Positions 2,174-43,171 of a stretch of DNA of 44,220 bases are shown here, piece after piece (positions within the stretch are counted from its first letter, which is position 1; the number at the start of each line of letters is the position of its first letter). Under the pieces are notes generated by a model that was not told where the DNA came from, did not search any database, and worked only from the letters and a program-made list of their open reading frames with translations. The stretch comes from a virus, in the IMG/VR virus record IMGVR_UViG_3300021425_002236, positions 1 through 44,220 of that record. One strand, written 5' to 3'. Position numbers and translations under genes: made by a program.

Positions 2174-2635
2174 TTACTTGCCTGTTTCGCCTTCAATAGT
2201 AAGACCTTCATTGATCTTAATTTTCTTAGGCTGTAGTTCTTCTGGAACTTCACGTACTAGATGAATGTTTAGCATACCTAGTTCAAGGCCTGCACTTTTC
2301 ACTTCTACGTGATCAGCAAGTGTGAACTCCCTACGGAAGTTGCGTCCGCCAATACCTTTATGTAGGTAATCAACGTCTTCATCTCCTTTAGGAGCCGTAC
2401 CTTCAATTGTTAAAAGTTTGTTATCCTTCTCAATTGAAAGATTATCCATACCAAAGCCGGCAACAGCCAATGAGATCATATACTCATCTTCGTTGATTTG
2501 TGCAATGTTGTATGGTGGATATCCATTCTTATTAGGGCTATTTTCAAACTGGCGTTCTAGCTCGTTGAAAATTCTATCGAAGCCGATAGTAGCTCTATGT
2601 AGTGATGGGATGTCTAAGGTAGTTAGTCTTGTCAT
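2174..2635 (-). CDS. hsp20: Small heat-shock protein, Hsp20/IbpA family
   Basis: The alpha-crystallin domain fills most of this 153-residue protein, with the class A signature near the N-terminus (IGFDRIFNELER) and the core YMISLAVAGF...L.IEG. Such proteins are ATP-independent holdases that keep unfolding proteins soluble. The frame extends upstream to 2659, but the Shine-Dalgarno AGGAGG (2643-2648) would then lie inside the gene, so the ATG at 2635 is the start. The 5' leader contains competing hairpins that could mask the ribosome site. Hsp20 genes are common in T4-like marine phages, where they may help capsid or scaffold folding. Confidence 0.93.
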   Translation of the reverse strand: MTRLTTLDIPSLHRATIGFDRIFNELERQFENSPNKNGYPPYNIAQINEDEYMISLAVAGFGMDNLSIEKDNKLLTIEGTAPKGDEDVDYLHKGIGGRNFRREFTLADHVEVKSAGLELGMLNIHLVREVPEELQPKKIKINEGLTIEGETGK

Positions 2636-2638
2636 AAT

Positions 2639-2690
2639 GTTTCCTCCTTTAATAAGCAAGTTAACTATTGAAACCCTTTCGGCGTTTCAG
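2639..2690 (-). promoter_or_regulatory. Candidate RNA thermometer or switch in the hsp20 leader
   Basis: On the transcript, GUUUC (2670-2674) can pair either with an upstream GAAAC (2684-2688) or with GAAAC inside the ribosome site (2639-2643). A UUGCU element (2655-2659) can also pair with AGGAA of the Shine-Dalgarno with one G-G mismatch, the arrangement typical of ROSE thermometers of alphaproteobacterial small heat-shock genes. This is pairing by eye, not a folding calculation. Confidence 0.35.
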
Positions 2691-2759: not shown

Positions 2760-3356
2760 CTATAGATTGAGTTTAAAGTCAACCCCAAAGAATGCTGTAT
2801 CTTTCTTAAAATCATCGTCAAAATCGACTTCAACAAAAGGCGACACTGAGAATGATCCAAACTTGTATTTTGTACCTATAAACGTTTGTAAATGGCTGTA
2901 ATCTAAATTACTACCTTCATACGTATATTGTACATGTGGTTCAAAGATTAAGAACGGTGAACCAAACAATAAGTTAGGCTGTCCTTGTGCTTCTAAACCA
3001 AACTGTGGGCGATAACGCATAACGTTTTCTCTACCTTCTCTTGATCTATGTTCAAATCTTGAGTTGTAAAAGAACGCTCCATTTTTAATCTGCTTGACTT
3101 GAAAACGAATCCAATCTTCGCCTACGCCTGCACGATCAATTTTTCTATACTCTAAACGATATGGATTTCCTTCAAAGTCATATCTTAAGATACGCTGAGA
3201 GTAATCTTTATCAGCATACTCTCTTACACCAAAGGTCCAATTGTCTTTAGTTACGAAAGTGTTTACTTCTGTATAATCAAAATCATCTGCACTTGCATTA
3301 CTTGTGCCAGCAAACATTAAAATGCTTGCCATAAATGCTGTTATAATAAATTTCAT
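2760..3356 (-). CDS. Predicted outer-membrane beta-barrel protein
   Basis: This 198-residue protein has a clear Sec signal peptide (residues 1-23, ending A-S-A before Asp-Asp). The mature part has alternating polar and aromatic residues, as in a small beta barrel (repeats such as YRLEYRKID, FIFEPHVQYTYE, FSVSPFVEVDF). It ends FFGVDFKLNL, beta-strand-like but lacking the usual terminal Phe. The ribosome site AGGAG is well placed. It follows the transporter gene, separated by a terminator hairpin. A phage-encoded outer-membrane protein may alter host permeability or block superinfection. No specific family is recognised. Confidence 0.7.
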   Translation of the reverse strand: MKFIITAFMASILMFAGTSNASADDFDYTEVNTFVTKDNWTFGVREYADKDYSQRILRYDFEGNPYRLEYRKIDRAGVGEDWIRFQVKQIKNGAFFYNSRFEHRSREGRENVMRYRPQFGLEAQGQPNLLFGSPFLIFEPHVQYTYEGSNLDYSHLQTFIGTKYKFGSFSVSPFVEVDFDDDFKKDTAFFGVDFKLNL

Positions 3357-3387: not shown

Positions 3388-3416
3388 ATAATTGGTAGCG
3401 AACCTACGCTACCAAT
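3388..3416 (-). terminator. Rho-independent terminator after the transporter gene
   Basis: A perfect 9-bp stem (TTGGTAGCG/CGCTACCAA) with a six-base loop is followed by TTATTTT on the minus strand. It separates the transporter from the barrel gene. Confidence 0.75.
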
Positions 3417-3433: not shown

Positions 3434-4483
3434 TTATAAAATTAAGGTTGCTCCACCTGCACCTACTAATAGTAGCATCCAGACACCAAGAGCACTGGCG
3501 TATTTACGCCACGGTGTACCAAAATACATCTTACCAATTGCCATACATTTATGCATAGGCGATACTAAGTATCCTGCATAATCTAAAGCAAAGAACCATA
3601 CAAAGTATTCAACTCCGTATACTAATGATAAGATTGTTGTGATAGCCGCGAACCTACTGCTTGATCCAAACGCAAAAGCTGAACCAAATGCAATAGCACT
3701 AAGAGTAATAAACCCCTTAGTGGTGTTAATATCAAACGCCGAGTTTTCTAAGTATGCTTTAACAACGTCAGTATATTCTCTTGCAAAGTTGGCCATTATG
3801 ATAATGACAGCAACCCAAGCAATTAACCTAAAGTCAACATAGCTCAGTAACTTTTTGTAATCCCATGTCATAGTTAAAACCATGTAATAGAATAACAACC
3901 CGCCAAACACTAACCACGGATCTAAGCCCGCAATTGGTTTAAGTGCTAGTGCGATAGCAAATAAGAAAGGTACTACATTTCTTAAAACATTAGAAACTTT
4001 AAAATGAGTTTTTTGAATATTAAGATCAATATCGTCTTCTTTGATAAAGAATATAATATATGCAAACACTAATCCTAAAGATACGATTAACAGTGGCAGT
4101 AGTGAATATACTACAGCACCGTATGTGATGCTAAATGCAGCCATCGGAATAAGAATAGTCTTTTCCAGTGGTGACCACACATAGTAGTGGTGTGTCGACA
4201 AATAGTCGATGATGCCAAATTTTTCTCGTCCTTTTGTTCCTTTTGGAGGAGCGATAGTATCTAGCATTCCAGCCGAGATTGTAACTCGTCCCGACACGGG
4301 GAGTATACCTGTAAATGCACTCATTAGTGCAACAATTACTCGTTTTGACTTAAAGACTTTTTGAATGTAGGCATATGCACCTGCAAACAAATTCTTTTCT
4401 TTTATCAAGCCAGCAATCATCATAATGAACGCAATAAACAATAGGTATTCTTGCCCCTTGTATAGCAAGTTTATATTTTCCAA
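3434..4483 (-). CDS. Polytopic membrane transporter, DUF401/ion-transporter-superfamily-like
   Basis: This 349-residue protein is strongly hydrophobic with about ten membrane segments. An early loop reads GILPVSGRVTISAGMLD, resembling the conserved re-entrant loop of DUF401-type proteins (G-x-L-P-x-x-G...SA-x-M), which belong with the ion-transporter and gluconate/citrate-type carriers. The start is TTG at 4483, supported by AGGAGAAAA seven bases upstream; no better ATG exists. It ends just before a strong terminator. Neighbouring genes are an outer-membrane barrel and GMP reductase. Substrate is unknown. The family assignment rests on the loop motif and topology and is moderate. Confidence 0.65.
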   Translation of the reverse strand: MENINLLYKGQEYLLFIAFIMMIAGLIKEKNLFAGAYAYIQKVFKSKRVIVALMSAFTGILPVSGRVTISAGMLDTIAPPKGTKGREKFGIIDYLSTHHYYVWSPLEKTILIPMAAFSITYGAVVYSLLPLLIVSLGLVFAYIIFFIKEDDIDLNIQKTHFKVSNVLRNVVPFLFAIALALKPIAGLDPWLVFGGLLFYYMVLTMTWDYKKLLSYVDFRLIAWVAVIIIMANFAREYTDVVKAYLENSAFDINTTKGFITLSAIAFGSAFAFGSSSRFAAITTILSLVYGVEYFVWFFALDYAGYLVSPMHKCMAIGKMYFGTPWRKYASALGVWMLLLVGAGGATLIL

Positions 4484-4560
4484 GGTAATTTTCTCCTATA
4501 ATTTATTGCATAACAAGATTGATTTCTTATTATGTAGGTTAAAAGAATTCTCTCTTTCAA

Positions 4561-5703
4561 CTATCTATTTACGTTGTTGGCGTAAATCCCATTGAACTGC
4601 TGAGTGCAACGTACAAATGTAGTACACTTACTGAGTTGTTTAAGTCCTATTGCACCTGCATAGGTACAAGTGCTTCTTACACCGCCTAATAGGTCTTGTA
4701 TTGTGTGCTTTACCTTGCCGCGATAAGGAACCAATACTTCTCGTCCTTCGCTACTACGGTATTCTTTTAATCCGCCAAAGTGTTTTTCGTTTGCGGCATT
4801 TGAGCTCATTCCGTAAAACTGTACATATTTTTCTTGTACAATTTTTTTCTGTGTGTGAATAATTTCGTTTGTTTCAAATTGCTTTACAATTACTTCACCA
4901 CCGCCTTCATCGTGTCCTGCTAACATACCTCCCAGCATAACAAAGTCAGCGCCTCCGGCAAAAGCCTTGGCAACATCGCCAGGGCAAGTACATCCGCCGT
5001 CAGCGATAATATGACCACCGAGACCGTGTGCCGCATCGGCGCATTCGATAACCGCCGATAGTTGCGGATACCCCACACCAGTTTGTATCCGAGTAGTACA
5101 AACACTACCAGGACCAATGCCAACCTTAACAATATCTGCTCCTGCAAGAATCAATTCCTCCGTCATTTCTCCTGTAACTACGTTGCCTGCAATAATAACA
5201 ATATGTGGATAATTATTACGCAACCCTCTTACAAATGTTGCAAACCTTTCTGAGTAGCCATTTGCTACATCAACGCAAACATACTTTAATTTATATCCAA
5301 CTTGTTCGTATACTTCTTTGAACTTAGTATAATCATTATCTGTAATGCCAATACTCATAGCAACATACTCTGTACGTTCTACTCTGTTGTTATTAACTAG
5401 TACGTCACCGTTGAAGTAATTTACAAGTTCGTCCTCACTATATGTTTTAACAAGACAAGTTAGGATGTTTTGTTGTGCAAGTGTGTCTGCCATTTCCATT
5501 GTACCGACACCATCCATGTTACTTGCAATAATTGGAATACCACTATAATGATATTCAGCGGAATTATCTGGAAATGTTGGATTATAATTCCTATATGTAA
5601 ATTTACGATCTAAGTTTACTTCCTTGCGACTACCTAGTATGGATCGTTTAGGTCTAATCAGAACATCTTTGTAGTCAAGTTTTATATCTTGTTCAATACG
5701 CAT
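4561..5703 (-). CDS. guaC: GMP reductase
   Basis: This 380-residue TIM-barrel enzyme of the IMPDH/GMPR family converts GMP to IMP and ammonia with NADPH. Catalytic Cys202 lies in [18 protein letters not shown]. The barrel continues with [35 protein letters not shown], and no CBS domains are present, as expected for GMP reductase rather than IMP dehydrogenase. The flap region ([10 protein letters not shown]) is also GMPR-like. The length is somewhat over the E. coli enzyme (347). The ATG at 5703 has a moderate site (AAAGGTAG). It would recycle guanine nucleotides into IMP for adenine nucleotide synthesis, suiting an AT-rich genome. Confidence 0.93.
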
Positions 5704-6293: not shown

Positions 6294-6575
6294 CTACTTC
6301 CTACGTTTAATCTGTGACGGAGGTAACTTACCGTCCATTTCCATTTGACGTTGTTTCTTCATCCAACGAGCTCTGCCCGCCGCTTTTGCTTTTGCACGTT
6401 TTTCGCTAGGCTTTGTGTATTCTTGTCTGTCACGGACTTCTTGAATAATTCCAGCCTCCATAACTTTCTTTTTGAAAATTCTTAGTGCTTTATTAAAATC
6501 GCCGTTTCTTACTTCAACAGTTAAACCATTTCCAAATGATTGGCTGTTGTCGTTTTTTCTATTGTTTCTTCTCAA
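6294..6575 (-). CDS. rpsU: Ribosomal protein bS21, phage-encoded
   Basis: This 93-residue basic protein matches bS21 (VEVRNGDFNKALRIFKKK, then EVRDRQEYTKPSEKRAKAKAA). bS21 sits near the anti-Shine-Dalgarno end of 16S rRNA and affects initiation. It is about 20 residues longer than E. coli bS21, with extra polar residues at the N-terminus and a lysine-rich tail. The start is TTG at 6575, and its GGAGGA site lies inside the last codons of the preceding gene, which it overlaps by 17 nt. It also has its own near-consensus promoter (6637-6666). Phage bS21 genes are known, including in pelagiphages, and are thought to alter ribosome specificity. Confidence 0.93.
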   Translation of the reverse strand: MRRNNRKNDNSQSFGNGLTVEVRNGDFNKALRIFKKKVMEAGIIQEVRDRQEYTKPSEKRAKAKAAGRARWMKKQRQMEMDGKLPPSQIKRRK

Positions 6576-6957: not shown

Positions 6958-8641
6958 CTTTGGGCCTGATGTTTTTCCATTTACTGTCTGAAGAGTTTTG
7001 TTCTTCGTTCTGTATATATCCTTGGCCCTCGGATGGTTGTTCTTGTTGTGGTTCTGTTTCCAGTTTGATTTGTTTGTTATTATCTTTAATCATAAACTTT
7101 TGCGGAGTAAAATGTTTTTCCCACGGTAACTCGTCTATCTTACCTTCCAGATATAATTGTTTGTATATCTTTAAAGTTAATGTAGGATTCTCGTCTTTCC
7201 ATGCTTGTTTAGCATTTTCCCAATCTTGTGTATCTTGTTCATCAAGTTTCTTTTGACGATCCTCTACTGATTCTTCCGATAATTTTATATCTTTTTTTTT
7301 CGGTTCTGGATCTACTTCTACTTCTTTTAGATCTTCTACTTCAGGAAGTTTATCCTCAGTGTCACCTATAATCTCTTCTGGTTCTGGTTCTTTTTCTGGT
7401 TCAAACGATGGCGGAACATTAGAAGCTATTACTTCTGCTCTCATTCGTTCGTAGTCTTTCCATTCATCGTTATCAAGTGCGGGCTTACGTTTTCTACCCC
7501 ATTCAAATGTATACTGACTTGCTATAAGTAATAGTACAGCAAGTGGATCAAATACAAATATAATTGTAATAATAACCCAACGTACTGCTTCTTCCAACAT
7601 ATTGCGATCAGCACTTTCGCCGTATACAAACTCAGCAATGTATTTGATAGGTCCTACTTCTGCTTCTAGTTTTCTGTATTCTGCTTCTAGTTCAAACTTT
7701 TCATCAGTTAGGACTTCAATTTCTGCGTTTGCTGTGCGAACTCTTTCAAACTGTTCATCTAGTAACTCATCAAGATTAACATCGTCTGTTCCTAGTTTAC
7801 TTCTTAGTCTATTAATAAGTTCGTTTGACTGTTTAATGTTATCTTCTGCAACAGTTCTTAATCTTTTAATTTCTTCACGTGCCGCTATTACTGTAGGCGA
7901 ACTTGCGGCTTCTTGAATCTTTACTACCCATTCTGCACGTTCTTCTTTCTTTTCGTCTTTCCAGTCGCCGATCTTTTCTGCTGTCTTTTTACCAAAGATA
8001 CCATCTGCACTAGCACCAATCATTTGTTGTGCTTTTTTAACTTCGCCATTGTCTACATAACCTTGAAGTGTTTCTAGGTCTGCATCAATTTTATCTAATT
8101 CGTTTTGGAATAATTGTGTTACGTTTGCAATTATATCATTCTGTTCTTTAATTGCAGGATTAATACGATCGTATGCTGTGTCAATACGTGTCTGTTCTTT
8201 ATCAATCTGTTCTTGTATTTGTGAGTCGTTGTTGAATGTGCTTGACTCTAGTTCTCTAATTTTGTTTTCTGCACGGCCAATAACACTAATGTATCTTGTT
8301 ATTTCATTATCAATGCGTTCTACTTGAGCAACACTTTCTTCGCCAGCACTTGTTTGTTCAATATGGGCTTTACTTAAAAAGCCGAAAATACCCATACTTG
8401 TTATAAGCATGAGTACAAGGACGGCTACACTTAGATAACCTTTAAGCCACCAGGAAGCCTTCTTCCAATATTTGTGTAACCAAACAGCCGTTACTAGTTT
8501 ACCAACTTCTAGTACCCCACCCATAATCATAATAGGAAGTGCGGCAGCCGCAAAAATAGCAACCAATCCTGCTACTGAATAGTATATTGCCACCGCTGAA
8601 ATACTTAGAGCAGTGATTAATGTTAGAATCGCTAACAGCAT
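6950..8641 (-). CDS. Large membrane and coiled-coil protein with peptidoglycan-binding-like motif
   Basis: The chosen start (ATG at 8641) gives 563 residues. An upstream in-frame ATG at 8692 lacks a ribosome site, while AGGAGAGGAAAC precedes 8641 and a late promoter (8669-8677) lies inside the longer version. The protein has two or three N-terminal membrane segments (MLLAILTLITALSISAVAIYY and onward), a long charged coiled coil, a short AQQMIGASADGIFGKKT stretch resembling a peptidoglycan-binding repeat, another membrane segment (WVIITIIFVFDPLAVLLLIA), and an acidic Pro/Glu-rich tail. Similar proteins occur in T4-like marine phages. It may span the inner membrane and touch the wall, but its role is unknown. 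Confidence 0.85.
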   Translation of the reverse strand: MLLAILTLITALSISAVAIYYSVAGLVAIFAAAALPIMIMGGVLEVGKLVTAVWLHKYWKKASWWLKGYLSVAVLVLMLITSMGIFGFLSKAHIEQTSAGEESVAQVERIDNEITRYISVIGRAENKIRELESSTFNNDSQIQEQIDKEQTRIDTAYDRINPAIKEQNDIIANVTQLFQNELDKIDADLETLQGYVDNGEVKKAQQMIGASADGIFGKKTAEKIGDWKDEKKEERAEWVVKIQEAASSPTVIAAREEIKRLRTVAEDNIKQSNELINRLRSKLGTDDVNLDELLDEQFERVRTANAEIEVLTDEKFELEAEYRKLEAEVGPIKYIAEFVYGESADRNMLEEAVRWVIITIIFVFDPLAVLLLIASQYTFEWGRKRKPALDNDEWKDYERMRAEVIASNVPPSFEPEKEPEPEEIIGDTEDKLPEVEDLKEVEVDPEPKKKDIKLSEESVEDRQKKLDEQDTQDWENAKQAWKDENPTLTLKIYKQLYLEGKIDELPWEKHFTPQKFMIKDNNKQIKLETEPQQEQPSEGQGYIQNEEQNSSDSKWKNIRPKDE

Positions 8642-8668
8642 GTTTCCTCTCCTGGAGATCTCTATGTT

Positions 8669-8677
8669 GTATTTATC
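8669..8677 (-). promoter_or_regulatory. T4-type late promoter core
   Basis: The minus strand reads GATAAATAC 27 nt before the ATG at 8641. It matches the cores at 577 and 32661 and supports the shorter gene start. Confidence 0.5.
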
Positions 8678-8706
8678 GGTATTTTGGCTCATAATAAAGT
8701 GTTGTG

Positions 8707-9144
8707 TTATCTAACAATAAACCTCCAGCCATTATGTCCTACGTCTTGACACGCTGTTTCTTCAAAGTTACGTGTCTTTCCTTTAACTGTAATAGTGCTG
8801 TAAATTACTTTACAAAACCCGCTACTCATAGGATATCCATGTACCGCTTTTACACTACCTTTGGCTGTACTTTCAAACCAGTTGTATACTGTACCGTATT
8901 CACTTTCAAGTGCGGCATGTACAGCACCACTTTGTTTACGCTTTTGTTCGTCAGTTAAACGAAACCACTGATACTTACTAAGGTTAATAACAGTACTAAC
9001 TACTCCGCCATTTGTATAATTCATTTCAGCACTATGTGAAATGCTTTTACTTTGCTGATAGGGTGTAGTTGTAGAGCAGGCTCCTAAACTACCTAACAGT
9101 ACCGTTAATGTTAAGAATTTCCCAACTGCCGTCAAGTTTCTCAC
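8707..9144 (-). CDS. Lipoprotein with surface-antigen-like domain
   Basis: This 145-residue protein starts with GTG at 9144 (GAGGAG upstream). It has a lipoprotein signal peptide ending in the lipobox LGSLGAC. The mature domain has the pattern SEYGTVYNWFES...G..KAVHGYP...CKVIYSTITVKGKTRNFEETACQD.GHNGW, resembling the C-terminal domain of Rickettsia-type 17-kDa surface antigens. It is the last of three lipoprotein genes and overlaps its upstream neighbour by 56 nt. It is probably anchored in the outer membrane. A role in surface change, superinfection exclusion or lysis is possible but unproven. Confidence 0.8.
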   Translation of the reverse strand: MRNLTAVGKFLTLTVLLGSLGACSTTTPYQQSKSISHSAEMNYTNGGVVSTVINLSKYQWFRLTDEQKRKQSGAVHAALESEYGTVYNWFESTAKGSVKAVHGYPMSSGFCKVIYSTITVKGKTRNFEETACQDVGHNGWRFIVR

Positions 9145-9421
9145 ATCTTACTCCTCTTACTTTTGTTAGTTTACCCCAACGGGTTTCGTTATACCAAAAT
9201 TCTTCGCAACCTGTATCGATACCTGCCCTAGCAATTTCCATTTGATTACCGGGACGATCAGTACACTCTAAAACAGTTTCACTGTCAACTGTTTGACCTT
9301 GTTCCATTTTTATAGTTTGGTCAGTGTAACAATACGGTGCGTCATAGTCATAATAGTCAGGGGTGATTGAACACCCTGCACTACTAATTACTATTAGACT
9401 GAGTAGAAGATGCTTGAGCAT
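9089..9421 (-). CDS. Small cysteine-containing lipoprotein
   Basis: The ATG at 9421, with GAGG upstream, gives 110 residues; a TTG five codons earlier is less likely. The signal peptide ends in the lipobox ISSAGC. The mature part has several cysteines (APYCYTD, VLECTDRPG, DTGCEEF, VRCEKLD), probably disulfide-bonded in the periplasm. It overlaps the genes on both sides. No family is recognised, but the position between two other lipoproteins suggests a joint envelope function. Confidence 0.75.
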   Translation of the reverse strand: MLKHLLLSLIVISSAGCSITPDYYDYDAPYCYTDQTIKMEQGQTVDSETVLECTDRPGNQMEIARAGIDTGCEEFWYNETRWGKLTKVRGVRCEKLDGSWEILNINGTVR

Positions 9422-14875: not shown

Positions 14876-15172
14876 TTATGAATCAGCAAAAACGTCAGGA
14901 CTTCCTGTTTTGGCCGCATTTGCTCCCCAACTTCCGTGTCCTGTAGTAGCATCAGTTTTTCTATGTACTGCTATGTTATTTGCAAACACAGTTGCTGATC
15001 CTGCAGCCGCACCATCACCGCAAATAGTAGTATCACCTATTCTTACAGTTGATTCGTTATTAGTAAATACGTCAGGCGATCCTTCATTATAACTAGTTTG
15101 ATGAAATGGGTTAGGTGTATCAGAGTCATGTCCTTCATGAACATCTAAATTTTTTCTTACTACTTCTGGCAT
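14876..15172 (-). CDS. PAAR-domain tail-spike tip protein (T4 gp5.4-like)
   Basis: This 98-residue protein has the size of T4 gp5.4 (97) and PAAR-like repeats: VRIGDTTICGDGAAAGSATVF, NNIAVHRKTD and GHGSWGANAAKTGSPDVF. Such proteins cap the central baseplate spike and sharpen it for membrane piercing. The ATG overlaps the stop of the giant fibre gene (TAATG), with GGAT upstream. The early Asp/His-rich residues could bind a metal ion. Position next to a fibre gene supports a baseplate role. Confidence 0.85.
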   Translation of the reverse strand: MPEVVRKNLDVHEGHDSDTPNPFHQTSYNEGSPDVFTNNESTVRIGDTTICGDGAAAGSATVFANNIAVHRKTDATTGHGSWGANAAKTGSPDVFADS

Positions 15173-18100
15173 TATATTGATCCTATTGCTATTTCTATTA
15201 ATCTTACTTCGAACTCTTTTGGACAGTTTTCAATTGACTTACCAATAACAGCACCGCCTACCCACGACTCAGATCTACATGCAACGCCCGGAATTGAACT
15301 AGTTACTAGTAAGTCGCCTTTCTTAATTGGTCCTACTACATAACATGGTACTCGTCCTTTAAGTGCAACAGCAACACCTTTTGCTTCTGAGTTCATTAAG
15401 TATGCAGGGTCAGTTGATACAACACCTGCTACTTTAGTTGTTGCTAAACCAGTTGAAGTAGTAACTTCCTGCTCGCCGCCGAACATTACAACAGTACCTG
15501 GTCTATAGTTTATATCACTTGAATAAACTTCCGCCAAATCCGCATATTCTGCTGATGTCGCTGTACCTTGGAACTTAGTTGTCCTTAGTGTTGCTGAGCC
15601 AGGTATATAAGTTAATCCGCCAGTACCACTACTATGTTCGTCTACAGTTAATTCTTTTAATTGTGCAGCAGAAGTATTATCTGATGATCCGTCAACGAAT
15701 ACTAAATTCCACTCTGCTGTAGAAGTTTGATTATTTTCAATATAACTTGTATATGATTTAGTATCAGTATCAGTCCACGGCACATTGACATACATTCTAT
15801 TATTGCCGTCTAATTCAACTGCATAATAATTAGAAGCACTAATTTGAGCACCTATTTTAACAAGACCTGCTGTACTAGCTGTTGCAATATCATATTCTGT
15901 ATTATTATCTGTAAATAACGCATCTACTGGTACTGCTGTTTTAACATTATCAAATGCCCAGTCTGAGCTAATTGCTGTAGTTGTTGCTCCATTAGTTGGG
16001 GTACTAGATATTGCAAGTTGAGTATTATCATTTGGAGATGTAAGTGTTACTACGTAAGGATCTGCGGTTGTTCCAGATCCTGATGTATTGGTTCCTAATG
16101 CTCCTGTAGCCGTTACAAACTTAATAAATTTACCTTGACCAATAGTTACATCATCATCGTCACTGTCTCTTAAGGTCCAAGTAGTAAGTTGGTTCGTATT
16201 AGTATCTGTAAATAACGCATCTACTGGTACTGCTGTCTTAACGTTATCAAATGCCCAATTACTTGATATTGCTGATGTAGTTGCTCCATTAACAGGAGTA
16301 TCATCTACATCAACTGTAGTATCAGTTGAGCTAATTATAAATCCGTTAGCATTGTCACCATCAACCTCTATAGTTATATTTGTACCTGCTTCAACTGTTA
16401 CTAGGTCTGCAGTACCGCTACTAGGATTAAGTTTAATATCAACTGAGTCATTAGTTGTTAAGTTATCAACTAAACTTAAATCGTAAGTTGTATTGTTGTC
16501 AGTTGGGAAAGTGGCTTCTACTTTAAATGCTGATGCACTTGTTCTAGTTACACTTACGTCTCCTCCGCCACTAATTGTAATATCATCATTGGTGCCATCG
16601 CTGTCTGTTAAACGTATTATTGGATTGCTGTCATTACCTGCACTTGCTTGTACTACACTTGTTGAATATGTAGTATTGTCGTTAGCCCCAGCAGCTGGCA
16701 TTGTAAGTGTTTTAACATTGACCGCTGTTATATGGCCTCTAGCATTTGATGTAATGCTGTCTATTACATCAAACGTTCCTGCATATGCTAAACTACTACT
16801 ACCTGTTGTATCGGATCTAGTAATATCTGCGTGATCAATTGTAATTGTTTCTGCATCAGCTTGATTAAGTGTAAATGCTCCGCCTGTTGAAAGGTCAGTG
16901 CCTGCTGTTATTGTAATTTCTGCATTACTTGGGGCTGTAACAGTAGCACTTCCTACAGTTAGAACATGGCCAAACTCGTCAAAGGTAATTTCATTTACAA
17001 ATTCTTCAGCGCCAAGATCTACATTTGCTATACTAGGTGATGTATCAGCATGTGATACAGTATATGCTGTTCCGTCATCGGCACTAGCGGTAGTAGCAGA
17101 TATACCGTCACCTGCTGTAATTGTTGATGCATACTGACCACTTGTGTCTGTACCGAGTGCAACACTATTGGCTGCAATAGTAGTTTCAAAACTTGCTGTT
17201 GCACTACCTAAGTTGGTCATTGTTGCTGTGCCTGTACCCGTTACGTCACCTGTTAGTGTTACTGTAACTACAGGGTCTACTACATTCTGCAAGTATGACC
17301 AGTCTAGATTTCCTTCAAGTGTTCCTGCTGTAAATTTCTCAGTACCAACTGTCCATACATCATCGCCTTCATTCCAAATTAATGTTTTGTTAGCAGCATT
17401 ACCTCTTTCGATTTCAATACCTGAATTTTGTGTTGGTGCAACGTTACCTGCAAGATTACTATTAAGTAAAATAATATTATCAGCAAGGTTAATTGTTTCT
17501 GTATTAACAGTAGTTGTTGTACCATTAACAGTTAAGTCACCACCAATAGTTACATTACTACTTGTTTCAAGAGTTGCAACACTTAAGGCGTTTGTCCATT
17601 GAGGTGCTGTTCCGTCTGCTTTAACTTGTAGTACATTTCTAGCACTACCAATGGTTAATTTTGTTAGTGTCTCATTATAGTCTGCTGGTGAGCCTCCTAG
17701 TACTGAACCAGCATATAATAAATCACCTTGTGCATAATTAATTAAATTAGTTCCGCCTCGTTGTATTGGAACTCCTCTTGATAAGTTAACTGGGTTTAAG
17801 TAATAAGCACCTGTTTGATTATCAAGTTTGTCAGCATCAATAACACCACCGTTGCCTGATGCTTTAGTAGTTACTCGTCCATTGGCGTCAATTTCAAAGT
17901 GATCAAAGTGGTAACTGGCAACACCTAATGTTTCTGTTCCTACACTTGGTGCTGCTGGATTAGTATAACTTGCTTTTTCAATCTTAATGTCTACATTGTT
18001 ATAAAAATTATCCCCGTTAACATCTGCACTTGTTAAGGTTATTGGATCGCCTGCTGTAGTATTTGTAATAGACTGTACAGCCGTTGCCCAAGTTTGGTCT

Positions 18101-21100
18101 CCTCTTAAGAATGATTTGTCGTTTGCATTTCCACTGGCAAGTCTAGATGTATCTACTACACCACTAATAATATTTCCTGCATCAATAGTTGTTGTACTTA
18201 AACTACTCCAACTTGATTCTAAGTCGCCACTAGTATTAACATCGTCTACTATGATAACATTTTGTTCTGTTAGTGTTGCATTTACAGCGCCGCCTTGGCT
18301 AGTTATATTAATAGGCGATACTGTCAATCCAGCAACACTGTCTAGTGCCGCACCTCTTGCTTCGTGTAGTGTAAAACTGTTTAGTGTTACAGATCCAACA
18401 AAGAAAAAGTCGCCGCTGTCGACCCCAGTAGGTGGAGATGATGATTCAAACTTGATCGCATCTCCAGTGGATAGCCCATGGATTGGTACGAAGAAAGTAT
18501 TAGCATATTGGTTAACATTGAACACTTTAAAGTTGTGTGTTCCGCTACTTGATGCTGTTATGTCTACTTTCCCAGCGGCTGTTAAACCGTAATTTGCAAA
18601 AAGTTCAATTTCTGTAGTTGTAAGAACTTTTGCATAGTATGTAGTATTGTTGAGAAGACCACCTAATGGTGTATTTGCATTACTATCATAATACAACGGA
18701 TCTCCGTTTTGTAATCCGTGTGCTGATTGGAAAACAATTTTGTCATTAATAACATCAACATCTCCGCCACTGCCTGTACTTGTGGCTACGAATGCTTTAA
18801 TTGACTGTCCTTGCTGTGCTAGTGTATCTGTTGGAGGATTGTCATCAACTATAAAGTCTAAGTTTATATTACTTGCTGTAAATTGTAATCCTGTATCTGC
18901 ATTTAGATCAACATATAATCTATTTTGTATATCAGTTACACCAATGCTTATTGGACTACCACCTGAACGACCACCTACATCTGCATCATTAATTGTAACG
19001 TTATCAGATTCAGTATAGAACGACCCGCCTACTGTAACATCAAAACTAGTAATTGTTCCAGTTGCTCCAACAATGATATTTGCTTTTGCACCAGAACCAC
19101 TTCCGCCTTGTATGCTTACATTTTCATATGTACCTGGTGTAGTATATCCACTACCTCCTGGTAACGTTGCTACATCAACAGCATTAAGAACACCAACAAC
19201 ATGGCTAGTTACAGTTGCTACCGCTTTACTTGTTGCACCTTGAATTGGTGTGCTGTTAGAAATTATACTTGTAAAACTTGGTGTGCCGCCATCTTGTAAT
19301 ACTAGGAACTGACTTATTTTGTCTGTTTTTAAGAAGTAGTTATCATTAATTGTGTTTACTGGTGAAACAATAGTAGGTACACTACTTGCACCTAAATTTC
19401 CTGTTCCGCTACTACTAAGAGTGTCTGTTGTATTAAACGTTCCTGTAATTGTGTTTACTAATTTAAGAGTTGATGTTGTACCACTTTCTTTTACAATACC
19501 AGTTGCGCCTGATGTTGCCTGTGTAATAGTGTCGCCTGCTGTAACAGTTACAGCACCTGTTAGGTTTAACACAATTTCAGGGTAAGTTTCTACAACAATA
19601 TCACCTGCACTAATATTTGGAGCAGGTATATCCTGTGATACAGTTAATCGTCCGCCGTATTCGTCTACAGTGAAACTTTCAAATGCTCCTGTTGGAGGAA
19701 TAAGATCTTGATTAATTAAACCTTGACTGTTAAGTTGAACAACGGCACTTGGTACAGCATTAGTACTTACATTTCTGTCAATGAAGTTTCCTAGTCTATC
19801 GTTCATAAACGATTTGACTGCTAACTGTGTTACAAGTCTTGAATCTAATGCTCCATCAACATCATTGTCGCCAAGGTCTGGATCATTACTAATTGCTGTA
19901 ACTCTTACACCGCCACTTAGGCTAAGTGCCAAACTGTCTAATTCACCAATACTAACTTGGTTTCTAAATATGATATTACCAGTTCTGTTAAATGCTACAA
20001 TAAAGTCACCGATCTTAAAGTCACCAAGTTCATTAGTACCTGAAGTATATACTCTACCCGGCAAGTCGCTGTATTGTTCAAATGTGTCAACACCTACGCC
20101 ACCATTCTCTGGTAACGCATTATAGTCAACACCACTACCGCTATATTCCCAAGTGTGTGCTGATGAGTTTGTAATACTTGGACGATGTAACCATGCTTGA
20201 TTACCTTGTAGTAAACCAAAACTTTGTACTTGTCTGTTTTTAGTAGTCTTAACAGCAGCATTAATTGTAACTAAATCTGTTCTATTAACTACATTGCTAA
20301 CTGTTACAGAACTAACACTAATTTCTCCTGCATTTATAACAGCACCTGTACTAAAGAAGTTAGTTACTGAAACACTACCTTCTTGTACTTTTTCAACTGA
20401 AACTGTTAGTATATTGTTATCAAAGTTTACAACAGTTGCACTAATATTATCACTACCTGATGTTGCTGATATCAATGCTCCTTTAGTAACAGTATAAGAA
20501 CCTGCTGGCAAATAAACATCTTGATAGTTATTATGGCTTGATAAAACTTCGTCAATGAATATTTCTTCAAAGTCATGTAACAGTTGATGAGTTCCTGTGC
20601 TTGATCCACCATTAACACCCGTAACAGGTTTAGTTAGATCAGCATCATGGAATAATTGTAGCGAAGTTGTATTGACAACAGAAACATAGTAAGTTGCTTC
20701 GTTAAGTAATCCTACTATTTCTAAATTACCATTTTTATTATATTGTACTAGATCACCTGTAGATAATCCATGGCTGCCAGTTGTGGCAATACTATTACCC
20801 GATGCATTGCCTGCTGTAAACGATACTGTTACCCCTCTTGCTGTATCATTATTAAATGTATTAGTAACGTCTTGGCTTGCTAGGTTCATTACTCGCATTA
20901 CATATTGGTTTACAGTATCACGTTGAAGTCCTACAATGTTAACATTTTGTACATTGTCTACAACACCAACGTTACCAATAATACCTTTGTCAGTATCAAA
21001 TACCCTTGGCGAATAACCTGTTGACCTTAATGCAAAGTAACCAAAGTTTGTTGCTGAGTTTGTAATAGATAGATAACCACCGTTCTGTGTTAAACACCCT

Positions 21101-24100
21101 TGTTCTGCAAAAATAACAAAACAACTAACCAACTGTGCATATGCATCGTTCATTACACGCCATGCTACACCTCCAAAGGATAGAATAGTAAATGCATTAG
21201 CAACCATACTCTTACCTTGTTCAGGCTGTCCATCTTCTGGTGTTACAGGATTCTCTGCTTCAATAGCATTACTCGGTGTGTTAGGAGTAACAACAAGGTC
21301 TCCGTCTATTTCAACACCATTAGCACCTAAGAAGCTGATTACTGAACAGTTTTGTAAATATGGTGAAGTAGTTATTAACACTCGTGTGTTAGGCAGGTTT
21401 GTGTATCCTGCTCTACTTGTAGCAGAATCATTTGGATTATCAAATGCTACAGCAAATCTAAATGCTGCTATAGGTACAGTTCCTGATAGTGCATCTCTAA
21501 ATGTCATGTTAAACATGTAAGAAGCGTTACGCACTCTAAACATGTCTTCGTTTTCATTTGCTGGTCTTAAAATTACAGTTCTAATACTGTCGCCTACAAT
21601 TGAAACATTGTCTGGAATAATTACAGGGTTATCAAGTATGTACTCGCCTGTTGCAACCATTACTGTAGCTCTGTCTACAACATCTTTAGATACATTGTAT
21701 ACCATGCCTGATGCAATTTGCATAGCACGTTTGATAGTTGCTACAGGTGCTGTTACACCGTCATTTGCATCATTACCTTTTTCAGCACTTACATAAACTC
21801 TTTTACCACCAAAGATATCACTGTCACTAAATCCTAGTTGTCCTAGTCCGTCTGTACTTACTAGTTGTCCTTTAGTTCCGTCTTGTAAAGGTAATACATA
21901 ATCGTTTAAAGTTAACTTGTCATTTAGGAACAGCTCACTCCAACGTTTTGTATTTGTACCTAGGTCATATAAATCGTCTGTATCAGGTATAAGATTGCCT
22001 TCAAAGTCTGCTGATACTATAATTGAATCTGTATCTGTATCGCCAATTGTAATGTTTCCACCAATAACTACATTACCAGTAATCTCAGCATTGCCGTCAA
22101 CTGTTAGTTTGGTCCCGTTGAATGTTAAGTTTGCACTATCTTCTATCTCTCCGTCAGTGCCTGCTAGTAATACTCGCCCTGCAGTTAAGTCCTCAACTTT
22201 TAGTGTTGCAATTTCTGCTGATGTTCCTACATCAAGTGTAGCAACATCTATGTCTCCAGGCGTTAAAATATTACCTGTTGCAAAGTCCATAGTAACTTTG
22301 TTTAGTCCGTCACCAAATTTAAAATCACCAGTTTCGTCAATTTGTAATCTTTGTGTTCCTGCTGTATAAAAATCTAAATCATCATTGTCATTACCTGGAG
22401 TTGTTTCGCCTTGTACATAAGTGTCACCGTCGACATCACTTACTCCACCTAATGAGCCCCATTGATTGGATGATAAGTAACCTTCAAATCTTTGTGTATC
22501 AGTATTGTATTTTATATCACCAACGTTTCCACTTGCTACTGTTCCTGCTGACGGAACACTTAATCTTGATGTTGCATCAAGTGTTGCTACAGTTAACACA
22601 CTGATATTATCAATGTTATTGCTATCCATATCTAAATTGCCAGCCATAGCCTTTGTGCCATTTAGATCTAAGAAGCCTGGTCCTATAATACCTGGTACAG
22701 TTGCGCCTGCATGATTAAGTCCTAGTCTACGATTTACATAGTTTCTTACAGCACTTTCAACTGGTACAGTATCAGTAGCATTGTCTGTCATACCGTCGTC
22801 AGTACTAAACTCACTTACAGCAACACCACGTTTAAATCCAATACCGTCTAAGTTTGAAAGAGCAATACTTGCGGCAAAAGTAACTGTACCGGTTCCTTGG
22901 TCAACTTTAAAATAATCTCCTACTCTAAAGTTACCGTCTTGGTCAGTTGTTACAAAGAACACACGCCCTTTACCTTCTTCAACTACTTCTCTTGCTTGGT
23001 TTTTAGCAATCTCTGGCTTACCATAAATTTCTCTTGGATAACTTGATGTTTGGTAACTTCCAGTACCGATATCAAGTAAATCATGTCCAGTAACTCTAAG
23101 TGTACTAATACCTACTGTAATGTCTGCTTGTCCACCTGCTGGTAAACCTGCTCGTAGTGTAGGCTTATCTGGGTAGCCGCCGAGTGATTTAGTAAGAGCT
23201 GGTGTAACATCTATTTCAGCATATGTTTGTCCTGTTGTGGCTTTATTTCTATATGCTGTTACTTGGTGTATAGTATCATTAAATCCAAAGATGTATTTTG
23301 GTCCAACACTAATTCCGTTTTCAATTCTTGTTTGCTCATTTGGATCTAGGTCAGTGTCAAGTCTAATAGTAGTATCACCTACTTGTCCTGATCCTGCTGT
23401 ACTACCTGCTGTGTCGTCGACTACTAATTTAACATAGTCATAACTTTCACGCAATGTAATTCTTGCTACATTGTCAGGCAATCCGGCAACATCATATGCT
23501 AGTACACGATATACTTTGTCTGGATCATCGTCATACTGTAATGCTGTACTTGGTCTAGTAGGGTTAATATCTAATATATCATCATATTTAATTACTTGGC
23601 TATTACGTAAAACTACAGGAGTTCCATCTGGTACAGTAACTTGAACACCAGGATTACTTGCTTCTCCTGCTGCAATGTTAAGTTGATATAATTGAGGCGT
23701 AGTTCCTTCAACGGCACTAACACTAATAACTTCATATCTTACTAGATAGGTTGGATCGCCTAGTACGTTATTTGCTCCACCGTGATCAACATCAACTTCA
23801 CTGATGTTATACGGTGCATATGAAAGATTGTCGACATAGATAACTGTTCCACCTTGTATATTTGTGTAGGTAGCATCAGTCATTGCTGTACCAGTTTGAA
23901 TCATATCATCAGCTAGTACTACATCATCACTAACTTCTAGAGGATCACTACCTCTTGCTAATAATGCATAGTCACCGTATGCTGTTGATCCATTTAGTGA
24001 TCTAATATCTGAACCGTTTTCTGCAAGATAACTTACATGACAATAATAACAGAATACACTAACTGCTTCTGCACGTGAACCGTTTGTAGTATACAGTCCA

Positions 24101-41455: not shown

Positions 41456-42223
41456 ATGAAATGTATAAAAGATTTAAATCATCTAGAAAAATCATTGTTA
41501 TTCGCCAAGTTATCGCAAATAGCATATAATAACATCACTGACGCAAAAAAGCAAGCAAAAGATTTAGGATTCACCACAATTGAATTTTACGACAGAGACG
41601 GGGCACAAGCATATCGCTTTATGAATAAAGCGGATCTTGTAATTGCATGTCGTGGTACACAACCAACAGAGTTTGGTGACATTAAAGCAGATTTACAGGC
41701 ACTACCTGTATTAGCAGAAACAGTTTCACGAGTACACAGAGGTTTTAAGAAAGAAGTAGACGATCTTTGGCCAATGGTAGAAGAAGACATTGATCGTAAA
41801 GTAAACTTAAAGAAAGATCTTTGGTTTTGCGGACATAGTTTAGGTGCGGCAATGGCTACTATTATGGCTTCAAGAGCGTTATATAACCAAAAACTTAATG
41901 ACCCAATTGAGTTATTCACGTATGGTTCTCCTAGAGTTGGATGGCCAGGATATTGTTCTAGCCTAGGTATTAATCATCACAGATGGAAAAATAATAACGA
42001 TGTTGTTACTAATGTTCCGCCTGCGTTTGTAGGTTATAGACATCACGGTACTGAAAATTATATAAACGCCTATGGTAATTTGAGATCACCAACTGGATGG
42101 CAAAGAATTAAAGATAAATTCAGAGGCATCTGGATGGGCTTAAAACAAGGTAAGATTGACAGCTTCTCAGATCACAGCATAGACGAATATATAAAACATA
42201 TCGAATCTGCGTTAGCCAAATAA
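41456..42223 (+). CDS. Class 3 lipase-like hydrolase
   Basis: This 255-residue protein has the alpha/beta-hydrolase fold of class 3 lipases. The nucleophile is Ser128 in GHSLG, the acid is probably Asp182 (NNNDVVTNVP), and the base His240 (DHSIDEY). ACRGTQPTE precedes the domain as in fungal-type lipases, and FTYGSPRVG is typical. No signal peptide is seen, so it acts in the cytoplasm or inner-membrane face. It is the only clear plus-strand gene, has AGGGG as a ribosome site, and converges on prs with a 12-base overlap. It might release fatty acids from host membranes or help lysis; both are inference. Confidence 0.9.
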   Translation: MKCIKDLNHLEKSLLFAKLSQIAYNNITDAKKQAKDLGFTTIEFYDRDGAQAYRFMNKADLVIACRGTQPTEFGDIKADLQALPVLAETVSRVHRGFKKEVDDLWPMVEEDIDRKVNLKKDLWFCGHSLGAAMATIMASRALYNQKLNDPIELFTYGSPRVGWPGYCSSLGINHHRWKNNNDVVTNVPPAFVGYRHHGTENYINAYGNLRSPTGWQRIKDKFRGIWMGLKQGKIDSFSDHSIDEYIKHIESALAK

Positions 42224-43171
42224 ACTACTAACGCTTTCTTCGTTTGATACTCTACGTATTGCTTCGCCTAACAGTGAGGCAACACTTACTTGTCTAGTTT
42301 TCTTACAGTTCTTTGGGCAACGATTCTTAATTGAGTCTGTTACTACCAATTCTTCTAGTACACTCTTTTCTACCTTTTGACAAGCCTCGCCTGACAAAAC
42401 TCCGTGTGTAATATATGCTCGAACTGACAGTGCGCCGGCTTTCATAATTGCGTCAGCGGCTTTAACAAGTGTGCCGCCACTATCAATAATGTCGTCAACT
42501 AGTATAGCATGTTTACCTTCTACGTCACCAATTAGTGCCATTACTTCTGACTTGCCTGCTTCAGGTCTACGTTTGTCAACAATAGCAATATCACCGTGGA
42601 ACATGTCTGCAAACTTACGAGCCCTAACGGCTCCGCCTGCATCTGGTGAAACAAAAACTGTTCCTGTTTGTATTACATCAGGATCATCAACTAACCCAAT
42701 ACTACGTTTAATATCTTTTGCAAATACAAGTCTACTTGTTAGATCGTCAACAGGAATATCAAAGAAGCCCTGTATCTGTCCTGCATGTAAATCCATAGTA
42801 AGTATTCTGTCTGCACCTGCTGTAACTAATAAGTTAGCAACTAGTTTGGCTGTAATAGGAGTACGACTTGCACTCTTACGATCTTGCCGTGCATATCCAA
42901 AATACGGAATAACTGCTGTAATACGACTAGCACTTGATCTACGTGCCGCATCAATCATTACTAGCAATTCCATTAAACTATCATTTACTGGTGAGCAAGT
43001 GGGTTGAACAACAAAAACATCTTCACCTCTTACATTTTCGTTAAACTCAACACTAGTTTCACCGTCTGCAAATGTTGTAATATTTGCTGGTACTAATCCA
43101 GCAAAACAATGTTCTGCTATTTCCTGTGCTAATGGTCTATTGGCATTCCCTGCAATAATTTTCATTTTCAA
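42212..43171 (-). CDS. prs: Ribose-phosphate pyrophosphokinase
   Basis: This protein of 317-319 residues makes PRPP from ribose-5-phosphate and ATP. Hallmarks: FADGETSVEFNENVRG, VIPYFGYARQDRK, MDLHAGQIQGFFD and the PRPP loop AILVDDIIDSGGTL. A TTG at 43171 has AAAGGG eight bases upstream, and the ATG at 43165 directly follows the stop of the preceding gene; the latter fits the usual family start (MKIIAGNAN), so the start stays open. PRPP feeds purine, pyrimidine and NAD synthesis. Confidence 0.96.
   Translation of the reverse strand: MKMKIIAGNANRPLAQEIAEHCFAGLVPANITTFADGETSVEFNENVRGEDVFVVQPTCSPVNDSLMELLVMIDAARRSSASRITAVIPYFGYARQDRKSASRTPITAKLVANLLVTAGADRILTMDLHAGQIQGFFDIPVDDLTSRLVFAKDIKRSIGLVDDPDVIQTGTVFVSPDAGGAVRARKFADMFHGDIAIVDKRRPEAGKSEVMALIGDVEGKHAILVDDIIDSGGTLVKAADAIMKAGALSVRAYITHGVLSGEACQKVEKSVLEELVVTDSIKNRCPKNCKKTRQVSVASLLGEAIRRVSNEESVSSLFG

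Follow-up and report, generated by a model that had tools for sequence, protein, structure and literature searches.

The presence of a membrane carrier gene in a phage raises the questions of whether its product acts alone, what it might do for the infected cell and where it came from. The stretch of DNA in which these were investigated (the window) is a whole virus record of 44,220 bases, possibly a fragment, and ribonucleotide-reductase, tail-fibre and endolysin PHROGs mark it as phage DNA. The carrier ORF of this marine phage lies on the minus strand at 3434-4483 and encodes 349 aa from a TTG start, the product being a predicted DUF401-like inner-membrane carrier. A Shine-Dalgarno-like AGGAG (4493-4497, minus) stands 9 nt upstream of the TTG, with similar sites in relatives. 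The start is further supported by relatives that either share the TTG codon (for example L001, L009-L014, L016, L018, L019 and L022-L024, with a purine-rich site ahead of it and no alternative start between it and the upstream stop) or read ATG-ACC-TTG, with an ATG two codons ahead of the TTG position. Starts assigned to 182 unique full-length viral homologues, by a script that favours ATG, were 157 ATG, 20 TTG and 5 GTG. Purifying selection is evident from dN/dS values of 0.024-0.105 between the window and six relatives, so this is a maintained protein gene, and 50 columns are invariant in an alignment of 71 viral homologues. The ORF and TTG start proposed in a first-pass annotation are thus upheld by the ORF call, the AGGAG site, the relatives and dN/dS.

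The same annotation had related the protein to DUF401 and the ion-transporter superfamily, a kinship supported by TIGR00529, by PF04165 in relatives and by a predicted LaINDY-like fold. In the profile search that it suggested, TIGR00529 aligned with the window carrier at E 8.6e-8 (31.9 bits, below the curated cut-off of 378.4; residues 16-327 on positions 61-364 of 387) and was found in 11 of 13 relatives at E up to 1 (best 2.7e-15), and PF04165 (DUF401) was found in 61 of the 71 viral relatives at E up to 0.01 (best 1e-15), but the window carrier itself had no Pfam match, to PF04165 or any other family, with E set as high as 1. The DUF401 link of the window protein therefore rests on TIGR00529, its relatives and the predicted fold. 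Five of the 71 matched CitMHS at E up to 0.01, and the window carrier matched phrog_14035, a group of function not known, at E 4e-76. Between the phage proteins and cellular DUF401 (bacteria and archaea; PF04165) profile matches are near full-length. Two plasmid-borne proteins annotated as DUF401 gave profile alignments at E 5.9e-8 and 2.4e-6 and were found again by a viral carrier model at E 8.2e-9 and 6.9e-11; the plasmid search with the window protein gave no match and that with the S-CAM4 protein two weak DUF401 matches. Alignment with 14 cellular members revealed the motifs P..G....SA, [ND]Y...H......P and SPxHxC in both phage and cellular proteins. In a separate alignment six phage carriers were 15-18% identical to a Peptoclostridium member, with H146, P153, S358, P359, H361 and C363 (numbering of that protein) invariant. 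A further viral protein, BFVD entry A0A1L7N0V7, is labelled there 'DUF401 family protein' of Ralstonia phage RP12 and is 31% identical over 350 columns (Foldseek E 4.9e-18); searches of the phage collection gave no match labelled RP12. The assignment of the window carrier as a divergent DUF401/TIGR00529-like protein holds, as far as profiles and motifs can take it.

An AlphaFold2 model of the carrier built with 71 viral sequences (mean pLDDT 88.5, pTM 0.82) is built of two repeats. Re-entrant hairpins lie at 47-59/66-75 in the first and at 255-272/275-289 in the second, and each repeat also contains a broken helix, at 87-102/108-117 and 291-307/312-321 respectively. Counting these two, eight membrane-crossing helices can be read from the model beside the re-entrant hairpins, their membrane placement being deduced from it, and the ten segments counted earlier are a fair description of this arrangement. 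The loop that had been called re-entrant, LPVSGRVTISAGMLD (residues 61-75; 4259-4303, minus; located by alignment and model), forms the tip of the first hairpin, and the structure prediction proposed as a check on it returned re-entrant hairpins at 47-75 and 255-289. The internal repeat was not significant at the sequence level (hhalign of the N-half against the C-half, E 0.053 over 45 columns).

Many of the residues invariant among the 71 viral homologues sit at the hairpin tips and helix breaks. The first tip holds L61, P62, G65, R66, V67, S70, A71 and D75. A phage-type signature, HHYYVWSPLEKT (residues 98-109; 4157-4192, minus), occupies the unwound stretch between helices 87-102 and 108-117 and contributes H98, H99, Y100, Y101, W103, S104, P105, E107 and K108. 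The second tip, GSSS (residues 273-276; 3656-3667, minus), has G273, S274 and S275, and the unwound stretch of the second repeat, SPMHKC (residues 308-313; 3545-3562, minus), has S308, P309, H311, K312 and C313. The 14 cellular DUF401 rows share P62, G65, S70-A71, H98, P105, G273 and SPxHxC with the phage carriers, but have other residues in place of R66, H99, S104, E107, K108, S274, S275 and K312, and read RHxWEY..P where the phage carriers have their signature. We infer from these differences that the binding site of the phage branch has probably changed and become more charged in character.

Among solved structures the best VIA match of the carrier model was LaINDY (Z 22.6, 346 of 349 residues, 4.1 A), with NaDC1, AtDiT1, Pho90 and NaS1 near it and ArsB and TRAP carriers following. 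With Foldseek, eight structures matched at E 0.001 or lower (best 8.3e-5), DASS-type anion carriers again ranking first. The carrier is accordingly predicted to have an ion-transporter-superfamily fold, and its predicted fold is like that of the DASS/SLC13 carriers (LaINDY, VcINDY, NaDC1, Pho90) over the whole chain. The hallmark of DASS is the SNT motif, which forms the Na+ and carboxylate sites. No SNT motif occurs in the 349 aa of the window carrier, whose hairpin tips are PVSGR and GSSS, and this sets it apart from the DASS family proper. A PDB sequence search with the window carrier gave no match, and one with profile A6 a single chance-level match.

It had also been claimed that phage-encoded carriers are rare, which is not so for this carrier family. 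In overlapping scans of IMG/VR, relatives were encoded by 474 of 537, at least 582 of 599 and 334 of 356 pattern-matching stretches, and the carrier was found in nine phage records, of four named cyanophages. The cultured cyanophages S-CAM4 and S-H25 have the gene. T4 gp23 was detected in 8 of 18 carrier-bearing records tested, the record of the window not being one of the 8. A scan of genome contigs with A1 gave 43 pattern matches and no carrier relative, and PF04165 was present in four of 16 genomes picked for variety, with none in the three Pelagibacteraceae genomes or the Prochlorococcus genome. An HMM search with profile A6 covered samples from three phyla: that of a Geobacteraceae genome gave 41 matching genomes of 247 (best 1.8e-12), that of a Pelagibacteraceae genome 0 of 398 and that of a Prochlorococcus genome 1 of 244. 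The phylum samples are partial and an empty result proves nothing by itself; the same model did match in the first of the three. Recent acquisition of the carrier from a host, which the first-pass annotation had raised as something for a phylogeny to decide, is unsupported by these genome searches, cellular matches being remote and nearly absent from two of the sampled phyla. The phage branch is better read as old or much changed than as a recent host copy.

The carrier had been described as isolated between a terminator and GMP reductase. The GMP reductase gene (4561-5703) does flank it on one side and a terminator-like hairpin does exist (3391-3416, minus), but the isolation was not borne out: the hairpin separates the carrier from an outer-membrane-type gene that adjoins it here and recurs beside the carriers of relatives. 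This partner gene (2760-3356, minus, 198 aa) is the next one downstream and its product has a signal-peptide-like N-terminus; hsp20, clpS, heme oxygenase and bilin reductase genes lie on the other flank of the pair. The hairpin speaks against simple co-transcription of carrier and barrel in the window, and intergenic folds of relatives were compared with it. Promoter-like sites in the window were at the shuffled level (20 against 20.7).

The partner is predicted to be a 12-stranded outer-membrane beta-barrel from a model built with 11 sequences (pLDDT 83.1, pTM 0.73). In Foldseek no PDB structure reached E 0.001, OmpU being first at a weak 2.4e-3. The first three places in VIA went to two NanC entries (Z 14.6 over 160 residues) and to VhGalP, an oligogalacturonate porin (Z 14.1), but the lead of NanC is small, with other 12-stranded barrels at 13.3, of which NalP was the next. 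The presumed lumen face was net positive in all 11 sequences, and the invariant strand charges R45, R71, E80, R84, K88, E102, R104 and R114 lie on it; since the lumen was taken as the less hydrophobic side of each strand, charged residues there are partly built in, and the sign of the net charge alone does not depend on that choice. The barrel may resemble the small KdgM/NanC porins (NanC, VhGalP), judged by the model with its 12 strands, its top VIA rank and its basic presumed lumen, but there is no sequence match to them: KdgM was matched by none of the 11 family members in Pfam and no porin appeared in the PDB profile search. DUF2490 was matched by 6 of the 11, the barrel of the window giving no match. 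Two comparisons of the barrel gene gave dN/dS of 0.126 and 0.245.

Studies of the neighbouring slot in relatives used 187 unique viral loci plus the window (188), of which 13 end after the carrier, leaving 175 testable. A caveat that must be applied is that the loci are the best 80 per scan and lean towards the queries, that near-copies remain after 47 of 234 were dropped as duplicates, and that the gene caller was a greedy script, some of whose calls beside carriers of the cyanophage branch are spurious ORFs that overlap. An outer-membrane-type gene lies directly downstream of the carrier in 59 of the 175, and six kinds were distinguished. The commonest was OMP_b-brl-like (24 loci; four of five scanned exceed the PF13505 cut-off), with a gap of 11 nt or less between carrier and partner in 18 of the 24. 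The barrel kind of the window followed with 20 loci, then a barrel of ~290 aa with a TonB-box-like N-terminus (8), a receptor-like protein of ~585 aa (4: L191, L204, L212, L230), a TonB siderophore-type receptor of 717 aa (2: L083, L087) and a TorF/Gcw_chp putative porin (1, E 4.1e-50). When five of the kinds were clustered, 58 of their 59 members lay directly downstream of a carrier and the remaining one, in L211, ended just ahead of it; by comparison an Hsp20 cluster occupied the slot with 9 of its 39 genes in the 188 loci.

The partner in L083 and L087 is a TonB-dependent receptor by its plug and barrel domains as recognised by profiles: in L083 PF00593 matched at E 2e-43 (150.3 bits, cut-off 27) and the Plug PF07715 at E 9.7e-13 (49.0 bits, cut-off 23.9), with TIGR01783 at E 2.4e-58 (198.3 bits, below its cut-off of 223.5). 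Among TonB-dependent siderophore receptors the nearest solved structure is the enantio-pyochelin receptor. Unlike the receptors compared, these genes lie directly after a DUF401 carrier; in both loci the receptor gene is at 7048-9201, 9 nt after the carrier. The L087 contig bears phage baseplate genes, and its phage nature rests on these PHROGs, the record behind it having neither a gp23 nor a Terminase_6N match; the 17-kb L083 contig likewise gave no gp23 match. The ~585-aa kind is less clearly placed, with Plug scores of 19.6 and 14.7 bits (cut-off 23.9) and no barrel match in the two of four members scanned, and no PDB match for a four-sequence profile. The L204 contig, which carries this kind, has gp23 and terminase matches.

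The association was also examined in reverse, by searching IMG/VR with four partner kinds alone, without the carrier, which gave 108 loci (28 of the window kind, 5 of the 585-aa kind, 53 of the TonB-box barrel and 22 of OMP_b-brl). The carrier was adjacent in 28, 5, 49 and 22 of these respectively, that is in all 104 that were testable; the other four end where the carrier would lie, the contig ending ahead of the barrel in L456 and L462 and after it in L486 and L498. Because loci recur between the forward and reverse sets, and because each family is of common descent, these are not independent counts, and changes of gene order, replacements and fusions are the stronger part of the evidence for pairing. 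The barrel comes first in one locus of the window kind (L434). Among the 53 TonB-box loci, in which 35 family members carry the strict TonB-box pattern, the carrier is first in 18, the barrel in 29, both are in one ORF in 2 and the carrier is missing in 4. Seven barrel-first junctions were read in this family and six overlap (L472, L479, L469, L489, L493, L484), the ATG of the carrier lying within the last barrel codons; in L459 the ATG follows the barrel stop. The one-ORF form occurs on two contigs, L464 (911-2551) and L463 (1-1200, partial). The ORF in L464 has 547 codons and reads, in order, carrier, a signal-peptide-like last helix ending SSAVNA, the box VEEVVVVSAG and the barrel, with the carrier part ~45 residues shorter in mid-chain as judged by eye.

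The pair is probably an import module that the phage encodes for both membranes, in which the carrier stays constant while the outer-membrane half can be exchanged. The carrier would be an inner-membrane secondary carrier of elevator type, belonging to the ion-transporter superfamily and forming a phage branch of DUF401, and many relatives outside the cyanophage branch would pair it with an adjacent phage-encoded outer-membrane protein. That outer half may be a small porin-like barrel, as in the window, a TonB-box-like barrel, a TonB-dependent receptor or a TorF-type putative porin. Between them, the two would let the infected cell take up a small organic anion, either free or as a metal chelate. 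The direction is suggested by the TonB-type partners and the anionic substrate by the DASS-like fold, the positive lumen and the conserved Lys, Arg and His. An auxiliary uptake role is the most likely one for the carrier. Against the module stand the 116 of 175 testable loci that have no outer-membrane gene directly downstream, the cyanophage branch (52 rows) included, and the consideration that linkage inside each barrel family may reflect shared descent of the locus. The hairpin in the window, the narrow and Foldseek-weak porin likeness of its barrel, the sub-cut-off Plug scores of the ~585-aa kind, the strict TonB-box pattern in no more than 35 of 53 and the fit of the fold to exporters such as ArsB count against it as well.

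Those 116 loci bear on an unlikely alternative, that the carrier fills an auxiliary metabolic role on its own and that the adjacent slot is a cargo hotspot gathering outer-membrane, chaperone and ferritin-like genes independently. Its contents do vary, the 116 dividing into 94 with other genes, 10 with none, 9 with Hsp20 and 3 with a Dps-like gene, the last two making up 9 and 3 of the 175; the cyanophage branch has no partner, and in the window a hairpin intervenes. Independent cargo would, however, be expected away from the carrier as well, whereas all 104 testable barrel or receptor loci adjoin it, in either order, with overlaps and two fusions. The Dps/ferritin-like genes directly downstream of a carrier are in L069 (1215-1652), L236 and L238, all of one branch.

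Partner replacement is seen on a FastTree of 148 carriers, on which the presence of an outer-membrane neighbour changes 10 times (rows labelled 'none' left out) and partner kind 25 times. Near-identical carriers have different kinds of partner in L201 and L210 as against L204, and in L214 and L228 as against L212 and L230. A branch with three cyanophage records (52 tree rows) has no outer-membrane partner. TonB receptors and porins are common phage receptors, and frequent replacement between near-identical carriers is what an arms race would produce. It could on these grounds be argued that the outer-membrane proteins serve to hide the phage receptors of the host or to take their place, giving superinfection exclusion, with the carrier a membrane helper or functionally unrelated; this is decidedly unlikely, for 50 invariant columns and dN/dS of 0.02-0.11 point to a conserved function of the carrier's own, and exclusion has no need of a fused inner-membrane carrier. 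That the module works outwards, expelling for example a toxic oxyanion or a metabolite in the manner of ArsB-type carriers, is very improbable: the fold also fits exporters, ArsB from L. ferriphilum matching at VIA Z 14.5, and carriers of ion-transporter-type fold run both ways, but the partner in L083 is a TonB-dependent receptor, of a family established as importing, and no export adaptor was conspicuous by eye among the carrier neighbours displayed.

The import module would matter in several respects. Most of the auxiliary genes known from phages enhance metabolism within the cell; if the module reading is true, phages also broaden what an infected cell can obtain from its surroundings, with a bearing on nutrient flow in surface waters. 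The swapping of partners amounts to a natural experiment, in that features common to the outer halves should reveal the substrate. For DUF401, whose function is not known, the pairing supplies a hypothesis to work with and systems in which to test it. A bolder extension, to which slightly less than an even chance is given, is that a self-contained nutrient importer spanning two membranes, including a single-polypeptide version, is carried by T4-like phages and others related to them. Its conserved carrier would keep exchanging the outer half (porin, TonB-box barrel or TonB-dependent receptor), and the cell would be fed an organic anion or metal chelate that is scarce and that its own systems take up too slowly.

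DUF401, the ion-transporter fold, porins and TonB receptors are all already known. Among the matches listed in the literature searches, which covered mostly open-access papers and no preprints, none was found to describe the pairing of a phage carrier with an outer-membrane protein, and the searches on phage TonB receptors, porins and carriers likewise listed nothing on carrier-partner pairing. Two matches for 'DUF401' with phage or transporter concerned DUF4015 and DUF4011 instead. TonB-type genes as such have been named in viral data before, in a gut study that has SusC and iroN among the functions raised in its phage data (PMC12352455); a further paper concerned host genes (PMC10013915).

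Cellular neighbourhoods were read as a possible source of a substrate, but of 20 regions, in 19 of which the carrier was called, the contexts were varied and indicated none. Genes judged by eye to be of metallo-beta-lactamase-fold, LpxK-like and tryptophan type were seen in them. No recurrent outer-membrane neighbour was apparent by eye in the 19 loci, in contrast to the phage loci. A metallo-beta-lactamase-fold gene lies directly upstream of the carrier in L401, L403, L406, L408 and L409, and an LpxK-like gene in L407, L411 and L417, both again by eye.

Several other genes of the window were noted. Heme oxygenase and ferredoxin-dependent bilin reductase genes, identified by Pfam, overlap on the minus strand at 1245-1811 and 581-1273. 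A hemO-pcyX/A (pcyA/X) tetrapyrrole cassette is known from phages (PMC11480375) and is present downstream in the window as this pair; the main text of that paper has 0 occurrences of 'transporter' or 'DUF401'. ClpS adaptor and Hsp20 chaperone genes follow at 1814-2125 and 2174-2659 (minus). A ribosomal protein S21 gene is found at 6294-6575 (minus; PF01165, 57.4 bits, cut-off 27), and a tail-fibre protein of 3640 aa is encoded at 15172-26094 (minus; phrog_5342, E 1.1e-181). Towards the far end of the window, at 42212-43171 (minus), lies a gene for a ribose-phosphate pyrophosphokinase-type protein (phrog_619, E 3.3e-49), which has a weaker match to nicotinamide phosphoribosyltransferase.
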